From a virus: a stretch of DNA of 21,432 nucleotides. Where the stretch lies: positions 1-21,432 of the IMG/VR virus record IMGVR_UViG_3300046756_000053. The stretch is one strand, 5' to 3'. The notes under the pieces were generated by a model, which ran no database searches, was not told the origin of the DNA, and worked only from the letters and a program-made list of their open reading frames with translations. How positions within the stretch are numbered: the stretch's first letter is position 1; every line of letters starts with the position of its first letter. Below are positions 4,528 to 19,848 of this stretch, piece after piece. Made by a program: the position numbers and the translations under genes.

Positions 4528-5912
4528 TATTCAGCCTCACCTTCCGGTACTTCAAAGTTACCTAGTCGCTGTGGCGTTGCTTCAATCTCTGCGTGTGCCT
4601 TTGCAAGTTCTTCATCATCAAGAATTAGATCGCTAATCTTTTTATCTATTTCCATATTCAAGGTTGCAGACTTAACGCCAGTTGCTCGCATCTGCTGTAG
4701 GAACTGAAGTTCTTTATCGTAATCACGCAGATCAAACGCATCAGGATAGTAGATTTCTATATCGTTGGTTATATCTTGCCAATCACAAAACAAGCCCCAC
4801 AGCTGTTCTTCTGCTAATTCCAGTAGGTCAGCCTTTTCCGATAGCTTGGCATTCAGCATTTGAAACTCTGTTTGCATCGCCACGCCAGACATTGTTAATG
4901 CCTCAGTGCCGCGAACAGCACCCATGTGGCTCATGCGGTTAATAGCCTGTATTTTGTCTTGTATCGATGCACGTACAGCATCAAGGTTCTGGCCGCTAGG
5001 TTGCAACTGGAACGGCTTTAGCTGTGCATCCATGTCGTCAGGCATATTAATAATTGAACCTGCCCCTGCGGTAGCGTCAGTGCCGAATGATTTAACCAGT
5101 GTCGGATGGTTGCTAATGCGGATTAACTGCTCAATTTCTGATAGTTCTTGATATATAGCTCTCTGCATATATGACGCATCAGATATGTCACTGACACCAA
5201 TGCCGCGAACTACTGAGCGATTGGCAGGTAGGAATACAGCAGGGATTCTACCTAATACGTTATCGTCTGTTTCTATTAGCTTGTCTAGGTCATTAGTAGA
5301 CTTCCACAGCTCAACCCTATCCTTATACCAGACGCGATAAAACGATTCTGTGGTTGTTTGGTCTACGCGAATCACTGACTCTCTAACCTTCAGATAGTCT
5401 AGTTCAAACCTACCGCTTGCCGTTCTTTCGTAGTTCCAGTCAAGTACGTTTTCGGGGGTGAACATAGTGACATAAGGGCGAATGTCTTGCTCTAATTCTT
5501 CTGCCTTAGTGCCTACGTTGGACTTTGGCTTATCCATCATTATCCAAACATGACCGTAAACGCTAGACCAAATCTGGCATTCACGCATAAACGCATTAAA
5601 GCTACGCCCATCTAAATCAGCATCATGAAGAAAAGGATCAAGCGATACGTTATTTTGTAAGCTGTTGTAGGCTCTAGTTGGCGGTACTCGCCATAGGAAA
5701 CTGCTGTAAATGTGGACAATGTTTTTACAGTGATTGTCCATTGGAGTCAGATCAATCCTGCGATCATAATCTTCTTTAGTCTCGCTGATATAGCGTGTTA
5801 GGTATTGCCCATCTTGATATGCCTGACCGCCCATGTAAGAGCGTACATAGAACTCCCACTTGGCTTCATTAGAATCATATTCGGGGTGCGTTGTGTCTGT
5901 ATTCAATCTCAT
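4527..5912 (-). CDS. Portal protein (DUF4055-like)
   Basis: A 461-residue portal subunit, forming the dodecameric ring at the packaging vertex. The N-terminus (residues about 10-60) has the WEFYVRSYMGGQAYQDGQYLTRYISE pattern in pieces typical of DUF4055 portals. A basic-hydrophobic core follows, then a helical C-terminal region (SEKADLLELAEEQLW) likely forming the stem and wing. I use the ATG at 5912, which overlaps the terminase stop (TGATG) and has AGGTGG 5 bases upstream; a GTG at 5921 would lack spacing. It sits between the terminase and MuF genes in canonical order. Confidence 0.88.
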   Translation of the reverse strand: MRLNTDTTHPEYDSNEAKWEFYVRSYMGGQAYQDGQYLTRYISETKEDYDRRIDLTPMDNHCKNIVHIYSSFLWRVPPTRAYNSLQNNVSLDPFLHDADLDGRSFNAFMRECQIWSSVYGHVWIMMDKPKSNVGTKAEELEQDIRPYVTMFTPENVLDWNYERTASGRFELDYLKVRESVIRVDQTTTESFYRVWYKDRVELWKSTNDLDKLIETDDNVLGRIPAVFLPANRSVVRGIGVSDISDASYMQRAIYQELSEIEQLIRISNHPTLVKSFGTDATAGAGSIINMPDDMDAQLKPFQLQPSGQNLDAVRASIQDKIQAINRMSHMGAVRGTEALTMSGVAMQTEFQMLNAKLSEKADLLELAEEQLWGLFCDWQDITNDIEIYYPDAFDLRDYDKELQFLQQMRATGVKSATLNMEIDKKISDLILDDEELAKAHAEIEATPQRLGNFEVPEGEAE

Positions 5913-7132
5913 CAAGTCCACCTAGTAGGTTGGGGTATGTCGTATTCGGTTCTAACAGGGAACAAGTATTCAACCAAGTAACCAAGGGCATCATTCATGT
6001 GATCGAAGCCATCTTTATTTGGTATGCTTGTACCCTCTTTGTATGTCTGCCTTTCCAGAGACTTAATCGTCTGCTTACATTTCGGGCTAATGTACAAATG
6101 CCGCTCACCATCTGCCGACAGTAAACGACTATTAACAGCATTAATTCGATCCCTGACTAATGCGTGTGACTTTTTGGCCTTAACGCTAAATCCTGCGTTT
6201 TGTAAGATCGACAAATCGGTACGACCGCCTGCGCTTGTTTTGCGCTGTCTTGATGCAGGGTCTGGATAAATGATGATATTACGGCTTGGATATCTATCTT
6301 TAATTTCCGCTACCATTTCATCAGTGTTAGACCCGTACATGACAATCTCGTCAACGGCATACAGCTTCCCGCCTTTTCGTAAACAGATTACGGCTGACAT
6401 GGGGTCTAAATTGAAATCCATCCCTATGTGCAGTGTACCATTATCGTCAGTCATATCAAAGACGCTATGCTCACGACTAAATGCGTAATAAATTAGCCCT
6501 GTGTAAGTTACAAATTCAGCGCAGTATTCCTGATTAAAAGTTCTTTGATCCAAATCTAATTTGGCTTGTTCTATCTCTGCTTGAGGAACATTGCCGCCTT
6601 CAAGGGTTGTATACTGAAATGACTGCCACCCCTCTAATCCATTTATGCCTGATGCCCACAAATCATAAAAGTGATTGCGCCCCTTTGGTGTACCTATAAA
6701 CAAGGCATGTCCTAATCTGTCACTTAAGCTTGGTCTAATTACTTCGTACCATGTCTCTGGCCGCATATCAGCAAACTCATCCAATACAACAAAATCCAAT
6801 GCCCTACCTCGTAGGTTGTTTGGCTTTTCTGCTCCCTTTAGTGATATTGATGACCCATTTATTAAGCGGACATTAAGTGCCGACTCGTTTGTTTTTGCTA
6901 TATATTCAAACGGCAAGCAGTCCATCAGCATATCCCATGCGATTTCTTTTGCCGCGCCATAGGTAGGGGCAACATACCAGACGTTTTTGTTTTTGCCGAG
7001 TGTAGCAAATCTAAGTATTTCGCCAGTTGATAAGAATGTTTTACCAAACCTACGCCCTGCAACTACAGAGCGGAATCTAGCATTCGAGCAAAATATATTA
7101 CTCTGAGGTAGTGTCAGTCGCACGAGGATCAA
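5912..7132 (-). CDS. terL: Terminase large subunit
   Basis: The packaging motor of about 406 residues. A Walker A motif AGRRFGKT lies at residues 25-32, a Walker B VVLDEF at 115-120 and a coupling motif around IGTPKGRN at 146-153. The RNase H-like nuclease domain has DFNLDP at 239-244, YPDPAS near 290 and a final FDHMNDAL Asp motif, so both ATPase and nuclease look intact. There is no ATG near the start: TTG at 7132 or GTG at 7123 must be used. Either start overlaps terS by 26-35 bases. Adjacent terS and portal genes confirm the role. Confidence 0.93.
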   Translation of the reverse strand: MILVRLTLPQSNIFCSNARFRSVVAGRRFGKTFLSTGEILRFATLGKNKNVWYVAPTYGAAKEIAWDMLMDCLPFEYIAKTNESALNVRLINGSSISLKGAEKPNNLRGRALDFVVLDEFADMRPETWYEVIRPSLSDRLGHALFIGTPKGRNHFYDLWASGINGLEGWQSFQYTTLEGGNVPQAEIEQAKLDLDQRTFNQEYCAEFVTYTGLIYYAFSREHSVFDMTDDNGTLHIGMDFNLDPMSAVICLRKGGKLYAVDEIVMYGSNTDEMVAEIKDRYPSRNIIIYPDPASRQRKTSAGGRTDLSILQNAGFSVKAKKSHALVRDRINAVNSRLLSADGERHLYISPKCKQTIKSLERQTYKEGTSIPNKDGFDHMNDALGYLVEYLFPVRTEYDIPQPTRWT

Positions 7133-7466
7133 CCACTATATTGATTTGAGGGATTTCTTGCGGCTCAGACTCCTGCTCTTTCCAACCAGATTGCGTTTTA
7201 AGGTAGAAGATATTAGCCGTTACATTACCTTCCATAGCCATTTGTACAAGGTTCTGTGCCATTCTAGCAGTCTGTTTTGCGCGACCTTTTTTATAAGCCT
7301 CAAAAACCTCTGGCTGACGCTCCTCAACGGCTCGAAATGTGTTTTCGCTTATCCCGTAATAATCAGCTAATTGGCCTTTAGTTAAATAGGATGCCAACTG
7401 TTCAAGGTTAGCTATTTGATCTTGCTCGAATACAAACTGTGGTCGCCCACCTTTATCTTTATCCAT
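7098..7466 (-). CDS. terS: Terminase small subunit
   Basis: A 122-residue protein with an N-terminal KGGRPQFVF motif, a helix-turn-helix at roughly residues 28-55 (KGQLADYYGISENTFRAV) and the GNVTANIFYLKTQSGWKE signature near residues 80-98. All are typical of phage small terminase subunits, which recognise the packaging site and regulate the large subunit. The acidic tail overlaps the start of terL. Its ATG follows GAGG and overlaps the stop of the upstream sugar dehydrogenase gene (TAATG), so packaging is translationally coupled to the sugar cassette. Confidence 0.88.
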   Translation of the reverse strand: MDKDKGGRPQFVFEQDQIANLEQLASYLTKGQLADYYGISENTFRAVEERQPEVFEAYKKGRAKQTARMAQNLVQMAMEGNVTANIFYLKTQSGWKEQESEPQEIPQINIVVDPRATDTTSE

Positions 7467-8230
7467 TATTCGCCTCTGATCTGTTTGTTTATATCAATAG
7501 CACTCTGAAGCACTGTTAATGGATTGCCCATACCCTCTGCAAATCTAGCCAATGCGCTTGTATCTTTAGGAAAGCAAGCACCACCAAAACCATATTCACC
7601 ACCATTTGGCACATTTAAATGGCTGTTACCTATGCGTGGATCGGCACTAATTATATTGGTTAATTTGCTCCAATCATTACCTGTGTATTGCGTATACAGC
7701 CCATGCAACTCATTCATAAAGGATACTTTGGTAGCCAAAAAGCTATTAATTGCATATTTAACAAAGCAGGCTGTTTTAATATCCGTCATACATATTTCGC
7801 ACTCAGCAACTTTACTACTTTCATAGATTGTCATTGCCCTAAATACATCCACATCCTCACCGCCAAACACATGAAACTTAGGATTTAAGAATTCATGCTC
7901 TGCATTAGCCTGAGTTAAAAATTCTGGATTATATACCAAGCCTTTCTTACCTATAGGCAACCAAATAGGCGTAATCGTGGATTTAACTAATGTTAGCTGT
8001 CCCTCTGGTATTTGCTCCAATACACGCCGCACTATACTGCCATCAACACTACCATTTTCTCCCTGTGGTGTAGGTACGCATACAAATATAGCGTCAGGTT
8101 TAGCATTAACAACATCAGCAACTGTTATATCGTTAATTGCAGGATCACTTACTATCGTGTGATCGAATGCCTGTTTAACAGCATTACCAACGAATCCGCA
8201 CCCTATTATGCCAACTACGACTTTATGCAT
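7466..8230 (-). CDS. UDP-glucose/GDP-mannose dehydrogenase-like protein, short form
   Basis: A 254-residue member of the UDP-glucose 6-dehydrogenase superfamily, which oxidises the C6 alcohol of a nucleotide sugar to a uronic acid using NAD. The N-terminal Rossmann motif GIIGCGFVG is at residues 7-15, VCVPTP near 51 and a STITP strand near 90. The central domain has the VKYAINSFLATKVSFMNE helix with the catalytic Lys. The catalytic Cys is C219 in GGACFPKD. The protein ends 35 residues later, so the C-terminal nucleotide-sugar-binding domain of the usual 390-450-residue enzymes is absent. It overlaps the epimerase gene by 16 bases. Substrate and activity are unproven. Confidence 0.85.
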   Translation of the reverse strand: MHKVVVGIIGCGFVGNAVKQAFDHTIVSDPAINDITVADVVNAKPDAIFVCVPTPQGENGSVDGSIVRRVLEQIPEGQLTLVKSTITPIWLPIGKKGLVYNPEFLTQANAEHEFLNPKFHVFGGEDVDVFRAMTIYESSKVAECEICMTDIKTACFVKYAINSFLATKVSFMNELHGLYTQYTGNDWSKLTNIISADPRIGNSHLNVPNGGEYGFGGACFPKDTSALARFAEGMGNPLTVLQSAIDINKQIRGE

Positions 8231-9048
8231 TGTAATATATACTCCGGTAGGTAATTAACTGGCTTCCAACCAAGTTGTTTTGTTTTTTCTGTATTTAATG
8301 TTGCTTGTGTTCTATTCCCTGCCACATCAGGTATCAGCTTATAGTCCAAGCCGATCATTTCTGCAAGTTCGATTACAGAAAATGATTTATCTGCACCTAT
8401 TCCGTAGCCATCGCCACTGCCATTTTGCATTACACTGCATATACCACTAACAATATCATCAATATGCGTAAAGTTTCTTTGCTGTTTGCCAGTACCATAT
8501 ATGTTCACAGATTTTCCATCTTTATATGCTTTTAAAAACTTGGCAACTACTGTGGAATATACTCCAGTAGAGCATTCTCCATTTCCGTATGCATTGTAAA
8601 AGTACGTTATTGCGTACGGCATATTAAACATTGAGCAGTAACTTTGTACCATTTCAGTATTTAGTGCTTTGGCTATAGAGTATGGTGAATCAGCGTTTCC
8701 GTATTTTGTGCTTGATCCTGCATATATAAGCTTACTGTTATGTTGCCTACAGTATTCAAGTACGAATGGCAATGTAGAGGTAATATTGGTAAGTGCCTTT
8801 AGTGGCATATCATAGCTTTGCTGTACCCTGCTATATTCGCCAAGATGGACAACAACATCAGCCCTGTAATCACACAGATTGATCTGTGATACGCAATCGT
8901 CGATATAGGTTACGCCCGACAGTTTTGGCCTTTGCATTCCTGTGCTGTCATTGTCTAGTACAACCAACGAGTCTAGATTAGTGGTAACCAAGCTTTTCAC
9001 TAGGCTATGCCCTACAAAGCCGCGACCACCTGTAACAAGCACCTTCAT
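8215..9048 (-). CDS. NAD-dependent nucleotide-sugar epimerase/dehydratase (extended SDR)
   Basis: A 277-residue extended short-chain dehydrogenase/reductase. TGGRGFVG (residues 6-13) binds NAD; the active site shows Ser/Thr at 112-114 (GSSTKYG) and Y123-x3-K127 (YSIAK). An FTHIDDIVSGI segment near 193-203 is typical of the sugar-epimerase C-terminal domain, and GWKP lies near the end. HLGEYSRVQQS at 68-78 replaces the usual Ala-rich strand, as I recall from other phage-encoded epimerases. It probably interconverts UDP- or GDP-sugars at C4 for the neighbouring glycosyltransferase. Four-base overlap with that gene supports a joint pathway; the exact sugar is not readable. Confidence 0.85.
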   Translation of the reverse strand: MKVLVTGGRGFVGHSLVKSLVTTNLDSLVVLDNDSTGMQRPKLSGVTYIDDCVSQINLCDYRADVVVHLGEYSRVQQSYDMPLKALTNITSTLPFVLEYCRQHNSKLIYAGSSTKYGNADSPYSIAKALNTEMVQSYCSMFNMPYAITYFYNAYGNGECSTGVYSTVVAKFLKAYKDGKSVNIYGTGKQQRNFTHIDDIVSGICSVMQNGSGDGYGIGADKSFSVIELAEMIGLDYKLIPDVAGNRTQATLNTEKTKQLGWKPVNYLPEYILQCIKS

Positions 9049-9929
9049 GCTTTTGGCCTTTTTTTCATGCCGTAGTTATTAATCTTTTCATATTTGGCAT
9101 TATCCTTTTTAATCAATTTCCTATGTTTAAACACATCATAGTTAACGTGATGATGCGCCCTACCATATTTTTCCGAATGTACCGCAACGTCAGGATGTTC
9201 ATTAACTAGCATCTGTGACTTTTCCAGTGTGCCAGTTTTATATACTGTATCCGTATTGCCGCCCTTGATTGTCTGTGTTGCTAGCTTTTCCTGTAGAAAG
9301 GCAAAATACAATATCGTACACCATCCTGCTTTAAGCATATCCAACGATAAAATCGTATCCTCGTTATATCTGCCTCGCCACCTAAAGCTAACATCATTGC
9401 GTATTAGGTTGCAGGAATAAATTCTGGTGTTATGCAAAAAAGGTGGCCGTTTTGATCCTGCGGGAGCAAACATTGCATAGTGTGGACCACTCATAGCTAC
9501 GTTTTTATAGCGCAGTGCAAAATCTTCCATTGCTCGCCAAAATGCAGGGCTTTCGCATTTAATCTTTTCGTTCTTGTTTAATCGCCTAAAGGAACTTATA
9601 TTGTCATCCATAATCCAATGATGGCTATACCCTTCAGCTTTTGAATGCTCCCATATAAAGTTTCTTGCAGGACCACTACCAGTAGAGCGGGTTGTGCCGT
9701 AATTATCACAATACTCGTAGGTATCTTTAAACGACATATCCAGTTCTATAACATTTGTAAGCAGTTTATCCCTAGCAACAGCCTTTTTGTATAAAGCTAC
9801 CTCATGCGGCTCCACTACTATGTTATGCCTAACACCCATGCGCGTTAACGCCTTACTTGTAATCATGTACTCGTGTCGGCCAAGCGATGGTATATACAGC
9901 GGGAATTGCGGGTAATTGCTATTACTCAC
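9045..9929 (-). CDS. Glycosyltransferase of the TET-associated (TAGT) type
   Basis: A 294-residue GT-A-fold glycosyltransferase. The N-terminus LYIPSLGRHEYMITSKAL and IVVEP strand are followed by GPARNFIWEHS at 86-96 and HWIMDDNISSFRRLNKN at 104-120; D108-D109-N110 replaces the usual metal-binding DxD. RYNEDTILSLDML lies at 187-199. This order is what I recall for the TAGT family, described alongside TET/JBP dioxygenases in phages and proposed to glycosylate hydroxymethylated pyrimidines in DNA. It starts at a GTG overlapping the ParB-like stop by four bases. No TET gene is in the window. A glycosyltransferase acting on a protein or surface sugar remains possible. Confidence 0.8.
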   Translation of the reverse strand: MSNSNYPQFPLYIPSLGRHEYMITSKALTRMGVRHNIVVEPHEVALYKKAVARDKLLTNVIELDMSFKDTYEYCDNYGTTRSTGSGPARNFIWEHSKAEGYSHHWIMDDNISSFRRLNKNEKIKCESPAFWRAMEDFALRYKNVAMSGPHYAMFAPAGSKRPPFLHNTRIYSCNLIRNDVSFRWRGRYNEDTILSLDMLKAGWCTILYFAFLQEKLATQTIKGGNTDTVYKTGTLEKSQMLVNEHPDVAVHSEKYGRAHHHVNYDVFKHRKLIKKDNAKYEKINNYGMKKRPKA

Positions 9930-10546
9930 GAATAACGCTCTGCCTCATAGTCGTTGCGCTCCTTTTCAGGAAACCAAGTAGACTTTGTTTTGCCAGTATC
10001 AGACTGGCCTATAATGCTAAAAAATTCTGCCACATCATCTGGATTTTCAAAGTGGACAATTACTTTTCTAAATGATGTTGCATCTGGTTGATCAAACTCA
10101 GGCATACCTTCCCATTCAGCATCAGCATCCATCTGGCCTTCATCTACCTCCAAGTTTAGATTAAGTATTTCGCCTTCATCAAAACCAGTAAGTTCGACAT
10201 CAAAGTCTAGACTCTTTATTGTATCTAGTTCAATTTTCAGTAGCTCAAAATCCCACCCTGCATTTAATGCCAGTTTATTGTCAGCAATAATATATGCCTT
10301 TTTTTTGGCTTGACTCCACCCTTCAACACTCTGCGTAGGCACTTTATCCATACCCAGTAACTGCGCGGCCTGTAGCCTACCATGACCCGCTAATATGGTA
10401 TTTCCCTCATCAATAATAATAGGGTTGGTAAATCCAAATTCATTTATGCTTGCGGCCACTTGCTTAATCTGTGATTCGCTATGCGTTCTGGAATTATTAA
10501 TATACGGAATTAAATCTGCTGTATTTTTATATGTAATTTCTATCAT
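9926..10546 (-). CDS. ParB-fold (ParB/sulfiredoxin-like) protein
   Basis: A 206-residue protein whose first 95 residues are a ParB N-terminal domain: YINNSRTHSESQI at 15-27, INEFGFTNPIII at 34-45 and the GHGRLQAA box at 54-61, the nucleotide-binding part of the fold. A KKKAYIIADNKLAL helix follows. The canonical DNA-binding HTH of chromosomal ParB is not seen. Instead there is an acidic linker and a C-terminal FRKVIVHFENPDDVAEFF domain found in phage ParB-like proteins. Such proteins often sit beside DNA methylases or modification genes. Its ATG overlaps the stop of the small acidic gene. CTPase, nuclease or scaffolding roles are all possible. Confidence 0.83.
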   Translation of the reverse strand: MIEITYKNTADLIPYINNSRTHSESQIKQVAASINEFGFTNPIIIDEGNTILAGHGRLQAAQLLGMDKVPTQSVEGWSQAKKKAYIIADNKLALNAGWDFELLKIELDTIKSLDFDVELTGFDEGEILNLNLEVDEGQMDADAEWEGMPEFDQPDATSFRKVIVHFENPDDVAEFFSIIGQSDTGKTKSTWFPEKERNDYEAERYS

Positions 10547-10791
10547 TATACCTCTGTCCCAAATATTTCATCTGCTGTAAGCGTTGGTTCTTCTGGTACT
10601 TGCTCTGCAATACATTCCTCTACGGATTCATTTACAGATTGACACCAATCAGCTAACGCCTCGCGTATTGTGTGGCGTTGTACGTCTGTTTCTACAAGTG
10701 AATCCATGATGGCATCGAACTGTGCCAGATGATCTTCTAAATCAAAAATTAAGCATTCATCTATTAGCTGAGTAACTTTAATTGCATCCAT
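10546..10791 (-). CDS. Small acidic protein of unknown function
   Basis: An 81-residue, strongly acidic, mainly helical protein starting MDAIKVTQLIDECLIFDLEDH. I do not recognise the family. It is the first gene of the ParB/glycosyltransferase/sugar cassette; its stop overlaps the ParB-like start (TAATG), and a promoter lies just upstream. The ATG at 10791 has GGGG 6 bases upstream, preferred over a TTG at 10803. Its charge and position suggest a partner or regulator of the ParB-like protein, but nothing in the sequence proves this. Confidence 0.6.
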   Translation of the reverse strand: MDAIKVTQLIDECLIFDLEDHLAQFDAIMDSLVETDVQRHTIREALADWCQSVNESVEECIAEQVPEEPTLTADEIFGTEV

Positions 10792-10823
10792 AACATACCC
10801 CAAACGTAGGTGGATTAGGGTAT

Positions 10824-19614: not shown

Positions 19615-19848
19615 ATGAATAATCATATTGTTGGAAATGTGTATTTCGTAATATCTGAACCATATCGACTTAACGGAAAGGTACTAACAAAACACGAAAG
19701 GACTCAACTACGCTCTGAATTACAGGATGCGGGGATGTTTCGAAAACGGTTCAAATCCAGAAAGGATGCAGAAAATGTTCTAATTGGAACGGCATTAAAT
19801 AGGGATATTTTTTCAGTTTGCGAAATGGCTGACCTAAATATTTTCTAA
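19615..19848 (+). CDS. Isolated plus-strand small protein of unknown function
   Basis: A 77-residue protein starting MNNHIVGNVYFVISEPYRLNG, basic in the middle (RTQLRSELQDAGMFRKRFKSRKDAENV) and ending in CEMADLNIF. I do not recognise it. It is the only plus-strand gene in the window and has a full unit of its own: the strongest promoter, AAAGGAA ribosome site and a UUCG-capped terminator. Such a unit is typical of an early gene or an acquired accessory gene (moron). It lies opposite the lysis and early-type genes. It could be a host-takeover or anti-defence protein, but there is no direct evidence. Confidence 0.75.
   Translation: MNNHIVGNVYFVISEPYRLNGKVLTKHERTQLRSELQDAGMFRKRFKSRKDAENVLIGTALNRDIFSVCEMADLNIF

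Follow-up and report, generated by a model that had tools for sequence, protein, structure and literature searches.

Which molecule receives the sugar when a tailed phage encodes a glycosyltransferase of the TAGT (TET-associated glycosyltransferase) family, and from where does the phage draw that sugar? The question is raised by an operon at positions 7466-10803, minus strand, of IMG/VR record IMGVR_UViG_3300046756_000053, a 21,432-base tailed-phage fragment analysed here over its full length and referred to below as the window. Five coupled open reading frames (ORFs) encode a small acidic protein, a ParB-like protein, a TAGT glycosyltransferase, a short-chain dehydrogenase/reductase (SDR) and a homologue of UDP-glucose dehydrogenase (UGD), and lead into the genes of the small and large terminase subunits (TerS and TerL). 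Sequence comparisons suggest that this operon is a DNA-glycosylation cassette with a phage-made, probably acidic sugar, a reading to which we assign a probability of roughly 0.55.

The same gene set recurs in very different phages. TAGT homologues are reported to occur without alpha- or beta-glucosyltransferases in 288 of 753 glycosyltransferase-carrying phage genomes and are considered possible novel transferases (PMC13216743). For such TAGTs, the present locus supplies a partner (ParB), a linking domain, a likely donor class and cultured phages. In the open-access literature searched, we found no earlier description of this known family inside a ParB-linked, sugar-making operon. If the reading is correct, a charged sugar would join the known phage DNA modifications, one would have to ask which base accepts a sugar if all known hydroxylases are missing, and a role would be suggested for the many ParB proteins encoded beside phage terminase and methyltransferase genes.

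Organization of the operon and its glycosyltransferase

The features of the operon and of the adjoining terminase genes are as follows.

10546-10803, minus strand: small acidic protein, 85 amino acids; alternative ATG codons at 10797 and 10791; identity of 91%, 36% and 25% in near relatives
9926-10546, minus strand: ParB-like protein, 206 amino acids; phrog_620, E 8e-54; phrog_498 (DNA methyltransferase), E 2e-49
10157-10546, minus strand: N-terminal domain of the ParB-like protein, residues ~1-130; common to phage ParB-DNA methyltransferase fusions
9929-10132, minus strand: C-terminal 'W.GMPEF...TKSxWFP' domain of the ParB-like protein, residues ~139-206; TAGT-associated in other phages
9045-9929, minus strand: TAGT glycosyltransferase, 294 amino acids, predicted GT-A fold; PF20691, E 4.2e-42
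9600-9608, minus strand: DDN motif of the TAGT, DxD-type, presumed metal/nucleotide-sugar site; invariant in 42 homologues
9354-9365, minus strand: NEDT motif of the TAGT; NED invariant in 42 homologues
8215-9048, minus strand: compact homologue of SDR nucleotide-sugar epimerases, 277 amino acids; PF01370, E 2.6e-34
8668-8682, minus strand: catalytic YxxxK (YSIAK) of the SDR; Y and K invariant in 96 sequences
7466-8230, minus strand: compact UDP-glucose dehydrogenase homologue, 254 amino acids; NAD-binding and central domains
7574-7576, minus strand: catalytic Cys (GGACFPKD) of the dehydrogenase; Cys in 124 of 125 aligned sequences
7098-7466, minus strand: terminase small subunit, translationally linked to the cassette; phrog_309, E 1.5e-14
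5912-7132, minus strand: terminase large subunit; Terminase_6N, E 8e-14; Terminase_6C, E 9e-11

Neighbouring genes of the cassette overlap by 1, 4, 4 and 16 bp, in order from the 10803 end. The original prediction had described five overlapping genes at 7466-10791 that run directly into packaging genes; all five ORFs are indeed present on the minus strand, 10791 being an in-frame ATG with a longer start at 10803, and a 1-bp overlap joins the dehydrogenase ORF to TerS, which is followed by TerL.

The profile search of 9045-9929 against PF20691 gave 144.8 bits for a Pfam cut-off of 27.5 bits, which confirms the proposed assignment to the TAGT family, and the ORF also matches phrog_842. The four motifs that had been read from the sequence (SLGR, GPARN, DDN and NEDT) are real, and an alignment of 42 TAGT homologues shows GxARN, DDN and NED to be invariant. 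The AlphaFold2 model of the protein (mean pLDDT 91.4, pTM 0.90) finds its best PDB matches among GT-A enzymes, including GnTI and heparosan synthase, consistent with the GT-A fold assigned to the T6 TAGT in published work (PMC13216743). The predicted activity is sugar transfer to a hydroxylated base or to a base-linked sugar in DNA. Two TAGT genes stand in tandem in two other records (L078 and L271) and in Vibrio phage Kuja (L089:5581-8269), which suggests that two sugars are added stepwise there.

A ParB-like partner linked to the glycosyltransferase

The ParB-like protein scores slightly below the Pfam cut-off for ParB_N (E 1.9e-05, 25.0 bits for a cut-off of 26.3) and matches PHROG ParB families with an E-value of 8e-54, in agreement with the ParB fold originally proposed for it. 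A scan of IMG/VR with the TAGT as query recovered 80 loci of 52-98% identity, 70 of which carry ParB upstream of, and on the same strand as, the TAGT. After dereplication at 90%, ParB lies 5' of the TAGT in 41 of 47 loci, directly adjacent in 35 of them and separated by one gene or a larger gap in the other 6; four of the six loci without an upstream ParB are cut by a contig end. A gene of the terminase cluster follows within 2.6 kb downstream of the TAGT in 26 of the 47. The pairing extends to bacterial genomes, where ParB or its C-terminal domain is encoded directly 5' of the TAGT in about 16 of 21 loci, some of them near-duplicates, from Verrucomicrobia, Proteobacteria, Bacteroidota, Acidobacteria and others.

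The most conserved positions of the ParB-like protein fall mostly outside the ParB fold, in its last 65 residues, where W, M, P, F and P are invariant among 37 proteins. This C-terminal domain has three contexts. It ends the ParB proteins; it precedes the TAGT within a single fused protein (POP12, Vibrio phages 1.076.O and 1.124.O, Kuja, Aeh1, Ah1 and marine contigs); and it forms a separate protein of 90-109 amino acids that adjoins the TAGT in more than 20 contigs. BLAST aligns the ParB-like protein with one of the fusions, POP12_148, with an E-value of 3e-12. When the domain alone was searched against 50,697 phage records (single-sequence query, E limit 0.01), only six matched, all at or beside a TAGT. 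The shared domain is thus, at the level of sequence, strong evidence of a functional link between ParB and the TAGT, and we propose that the ParB-like protein is a targeting or adaptor subunit of the glycosyltransferase. Its structure model is good in the N-terminal domain and of low confidence in the C-terminal domain.

A role in classical plasmid or chromosome partition was considered for this protein and seems less likely: Pfam matches of the window proteins, which represent a genome fragment, include no ParA family, its relatives are of the ParB_N_like_MT type or methyltransferase-linked, and its C-terminal domain is TAGT-associated.

Additional genes accompany ParB and the TAGT in distant relatives of the window. 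A GT32-like DXD glycosyltransferase (PF04488) is encoded between the two in L009, L012, L016, L028 and their relatives, possibly for a second sugar transfer, and an S-adenosylmethionine (SAM)-dependent methyltransferase occupies this position in L050 (4341-5189), L030, L032, L034 and L074. The TAGT cassettes of L018, L055, L123, L149 and L173 share a small protein that resembles cytidylyltransferases (PF01467 where tested). All three are candidates for sugar or base tailoring.

Interchange of ParB partners in other phages

In phages, most proteins with the ParB N-terminal domain bear the annotation DNA methyltransferase or ParB-like (60 sampled out of 343 records). Where the domain belongs to a separate protein, the partner varies. 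Psychrobacter phage Y8A has the gene order NinB, Q, ParB, Mom, TerS, TerL; the gene lying between ParB and the terminase (L092:4596-5249), annotated as 'hypothetical protein', belongs to the Mom family (PF25680, E 1.8e-55). In Moraxella phage Mcat8 the corresponding slot, before or near the terminase, has ParB followed by a C5 cytosine methylase (E 3.6e-58). ParB varies in its C-terminal region with the partner enzyme. The simplest reading of a common N-terminal domain combined with a partner-specific C-terminal region is that ParB serves as an adaptor, with a DNA-side domain, predicted to bind DNA, and a tail fitted to the enzyme.

Pasteurella phage Pmp13 (L292:2328-3428) and Pseudoalteromonas phage SL25 (L298:3010-4080) encode yet another protein directly 3' of ParB and before the terminase, namely a fusion of an ABC-type ATPase with a GNAT acetyltransferase, which is a candidate for an undescribed DNA acyl-modification enzyme.

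The sugar genes

The dehydrogenase matches the central domain (PF00984, E 1.1e-21) and the N-terminal domain (PF03721, E 1.4e-08) of its family, scoring above the Pfam cut-off, and its catalytic T, E, K, N, C and D are kept in 124-125 of 125 aligned sequences. Homology and catalytic residues agree with the UDP-sugar dehydrogenase of the original prediction. For the UDP-binding C-terminal domain PF03720, Pfam gave no match in the window protein or in its compact relatives. Alignments to solved UGDs end at about residue 300 of 450, and the relatives found are mostly 254-311 amino acids long, with a minority of 387-423. We accordingly class the 7466-8230 product as a UGD homologue rather than a proven UGD.

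A different order of events would suit a dehydrogenase that lacks the UDP-binding domain yet retains every catalytic residue: the TAGT would use host UDP-glucose, and the compact enzyme would then oxidize the DNA-bound glucose at C6, the SDR also acting there or being unrelated. The predominance of compact dehydrogenases among the relatives found is in keeping with such tailoring after transfer, as is the lack of UGD and SDR at most TAGT loci. Several related cassettes (those of Kuja and L173, for example), however, include full-length UGDs of 387-423 amino acids, that of Kuja with its UDP-binding domain, which suggests a soluble UDP-sugar substrate, and we consider oxidation on the DNA unlikely.

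The SDR belongs to the epimerase family PF01370, as anticipated, with a score above the Pfam cut-off, and is shortened between its SST and YxxxK motifs; SST, Y and K are conserved in the subfamily (96 sequences). Its best matches among solved structures include GalE, dehydratases and UDP-xylose synthase alike. In alignments, Ser-Ser-Thr-Lys replaces the acid-bearing dehydratase motif, S-T occupying the site of the catalytic D-E pair of dTDP-glucose dehydratase, with T in 95 of 96 sequences. The same Thr aligns with the catalytic Glu of UDP-xylose synthase, in the STSEVYG motif. Both UDP-xylose synthase and dTDP-glucose 4,6-dehydratase were rejected as identities, the catalytic Glu (or Asp-Glu) of STxEVYG being replaced in this way. 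A Rossmann-type SDR with S/T and YxxxK and no catalytic acid pair fits the UDP-sugar 4-epimerases of GalE or UDP-GlcA 4-epimerase type. From the missing catalytic acid, together with general knowledge of SDR sugar enzymes, epimerization seems the likelier reaction, as opposed to decarboxylation or dehydration, and UDP-glucuronate is a candidate substrate.

The same residue bears on a possible pentose donor (xylose or arabinose), with the SDR acting as a UDP-glucuronate decarboxylase, as might be envisaged from RB69 and Thanatos phages. A UGD and an SDR do form the first half of the route to UDP-xylose and UDP-arabinose (PMC6024577), and phage DNA carrying pentose exists (PMC12838424 and PMC13390438). 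With Thr at the position of the UDP-xylose synthase Glu throughout all but one of the 96 relatives, and a single SDR in the cassette, a pentose donor is nonetheless quite improbable.

Distribution of the cassette and nature of the target

A scan with an SDR profile yielded 78 new locus records, not dereplicated, a few of which are close relatives of the window. Within about 6 kb of the SDR, a TAGT occurs in 62 of them, UGD in 47, and ParB or its C-terminal domain in 45, which ties the sugar genes to the TAGT. The reciprocal scan with UGD found a TAGT at 17 of 77 loci and many other settings, and UGD is on this account less TAGT-specific than the SDR. Operons with all four genes recur across different phages. 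In T4-like contigs the cassette adjoins genes that, judged from sequence, encode DNA polymerase, sliding clamp, clamp loader, RecA or helicase, and in L173 PHROGs identify a primase-like protein nearby.

Cultured phages carry related gene sets. In Vibrio phages 1.076.O and 1.124.O the TAGT occurs with no UGD or SDR found. The isolate Vibrio phage Kuja has two TAGTs with the shared C-terminal domain, and a UGD and an SDR, the latter 43.6% identical to that of the window, which adjoin each other elsewhere in the genome. Microbacterium phage NoodlelyBoi (NC_073372.1, L270:2738-4919) encodes ParB, a TAGT-like glycosyltransferase and a compact UGD with 4-bp overlaps; its glycosyltransferase matches phrog_842 weakly (E 1.1e-4), and hhalign of the TAGT profile against the Microbacterium glycosyltransferase gave no significant match. 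About 50 Microbacterium phage records carry UGD. In phage C48C1 (L094:4985-6885), an SDR and a compact UGD lie in a replication module beside a DNA methyltransferase, and the record has no TAGT match.

Very probably, then, the target of the TAGT is DNA, which is supported by the pairing with ParB, the shared domain, the interchange with DNA methyltransferase and Mom, and the association with replication genes. On the same four grounds, the original idea of a DNA sugar modification with a phage-made sugar is well supported by association. Its framing around TET/JBP partners is not supported, none having been found in the window or its relatives by a search that lacked a positive control. A glycosyltransferase acting instead on protein, whether of the phage or of the host (terminase, capsid or ParB), would be in line with a cassette often locked to terminase genes, with the lack of any known source of hydroxylated bases at the locus and with nearest solved GT-A folds that act on glycans. 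Such a target would have to be reconciled with a ParB and a gene slot common to C5-methylases, Mom and methyltransferase fusions, with T4-like contigs that place the cassette among replication genes and not with the terminase, and with the action of characterized TAGT-family enzymes on DNA (PMC13216743); we rate it a long shot. That the SDR and UGD make a host-surface sugar (for receptor change or exclusion) and adjoin the TAGT by chance is barely credible. Phages often have sugar genes of this sort in other surroundings, but most loci of this SDR subfamily have a TAGT within 6 kb, and four-gene operons recur in different phages.

Proposed mechanism

Under the DNA-glycosylation reading, the N-terminal domain of ParB would position the complex on phage DNA while its C-terminal domain docks the TAGT, which would move a sugar onto bases of freshly replicated phage DNA just ahead of packaging. 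The donor would come from the dehydrogenase and SDR, most economically by the route UDP-glucose to UDP-glucuronate to UDP-galacturonate, and the sugar would be acidic. The modified DNA might be armoured against bacterial nucleases, protection from host nucleases being the usual role of such DNA modifications. Given a DNA target, the donor is probably a phage-made uronic or other oxidized sugar; that it should specifically be galacturonate is a tentative suggestion. The uronic or epimerized sugar of the original prediction is plausible, and the prediction is sharpened here to the UDP-glucuronate/UDP-galacturonate route.

A more ambitious proposal is that ParB and TAGT form a self-sufficient, widely traded post-replicative module that works without TET/JBP or a hydroxymethylase of thymidylate synthase type; exchangeable sugar genes (UGD and SDR here; GT32, cytidylyltransferase and SAM-methyltransferase elsewhere) would set the sugar, the ParB C-terminal domain would pick the enzyme, and a uronic acid, probably galacturonate, would be placed on an undescribed acceptor. 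Taken jointly, these statements are doubtful.

Several findings weigh against a DNA-glycosylation cassette with its own sugar supply. Most of the evidence is association among redundant metagenomic contigs, and most ParB-TAGT loci have neither SDR nor UGD, which would make the sugar step accessory and variable. The UDP-glucose activity of the dehydrogenase is not assured because of the missing UDP-binding domain. Structural matches of the TAGT model are only moderate (best TM score ~0.48) and are to GT-A enzymes acting on glycans. Lastly, no enzyme providing a hydroxylated base came to light: Tet_JBP, a model for which no positive control scored, was not found in the window, in 43 related contigs or in 10 genomes with TAGT loci; the thymidylate synthase family, searched with working controls, was not found in the window or the 43 contigs, most of them incomplete records, nor in contigs of 128 and 165 kb that carry TAGT, SDR and UGD.

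The putative acceptor

The original prediction had noted that the window holds no TET or hydroxymethyl-base synthesis gene, and the searches just described agree with it; they also lend no support to a TET/JBP partner, a weak negative given the missing positive control. The thymidylate synthase family was likewise not found in two Vibrio isolates, each ~47.8 kb, or in NoodlelyBoi; Kuja, henriette 12B8, POP12 and two other contigs do encode a member. A C5-methylase was rejected as maker of the acceptor, its gene occurring in just 4 of 44 records. When a 53 kb contig and the two Vibrio phages 1.076.O and 1.124.O were compared with protein families, covering the best 25 of 34 families for one set and leaving out small and tail ORFs, Dam and N6/N4 methyltransferases appeared and no obvious hydroxyl-forming enzyme. 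Candidate origins of the acceptor's handle are an unrecognized phage enzyme, a gene in the unsequenced part of the genome and the host; alternatively, the sugar may be placed on an unmodified base.

Comparison with known systems

A close parallel is the TAGT of T2 and T6 (beta-glucosyl-HMC-alpha-glucosyltransferase), which shares the PF20691 family and motifs and glycosylates phage DNA (PMC13216743 and PMC13390438). It adds a second glucose to glucosylated 5-hydroxymethylcytosine (PMC13216743). That base is itself the product of a thymidylate synthase-family hydroxymethylase and an alpha-glucosyltransferase; at the present locus no gene of the thymidylate synthase family was found, and the linked genes are those of ParB, SDR and UGD. 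Phage SP-15, hypermodified with phosphoglucuronate on dihydroxypentyluracil, sets a precedent for a uronic sugar on phage DNA: its DNA carries phosphoglucuronate and it encodes a UDP-glucose dehydrogenase (PMC5977210) with 33% identity to the window's homologue. SP-15 differs in its thymidylate synthase-family hydroxymethyl-dUMP synthase, in its glycosyltransferases and in its longer UGD, and the region of its genome inspected has no ParB-TAGT pair.

In RB69-type phages, which arabinosylate 5-hydroxycytosine, and in Thanatos, whose DNA carries pentose, phage-encoded sugar-nucleotide genes likewise feed a DNA glycosyltransferase (PMC13390438 and PMC12838424). The Mosigvirus route, in contrast, uses a thymidylate synthase-family 5-hydroxy-dCMP synthase, and these accounts mention no UGD-SDR pair of the window's type. 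ParBc proteins of unknown function are frequent in the neighbourhood of the CmoX system (PMC12783734); the CmoX/CmoY carboxymethylcytosine pathway resembles the cassette in that neighbour but relies on a C5-methyltransferase homologue and amide ligase chemistry, with no glycosylation. Phage ParB-methyltransferase fusions and ParB-Mom pairs have the same ParB N-terminal domain as the window protein, and the Mom pair also the same slot before the terminase; they differ in a catalytic partner that is a methyltransferase or Mom and in a ParB C-terminal region unlike that of the window. Iyer et al. in 2013 reportedly predicted TET/JBP-TAGT DNA modification systems; these have the TAGT family in common with the cassette, in whose window and relatives no TET/JBP was found by the uncontrolled search. 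The passages found in open-access literature on TET-associated glycosyltransferases mention neither the ParB pairing nor a UGD/SDR cassette.

Other genes of the window

The small acidic protein at 10546-10803, which heads the operon, is poorly conserved, gave no family match in domain and PHROG searches and keeps its position only in near relatives; a function as DNA mimic or as an antitoxin-like protein is conceivable. Downstream of the cassette, the terminase is followed by portal and capsid genes, and the window also encodes a tail-tube protein, NinG/NinB, a Sak-type annealing protein, a YqaJ nuclease, a holin and an M15 peptidase. A plus-strand ORF of 77 amino acids, opposite no obvious gene, lies amid minus-strand genes at 19615-19848.

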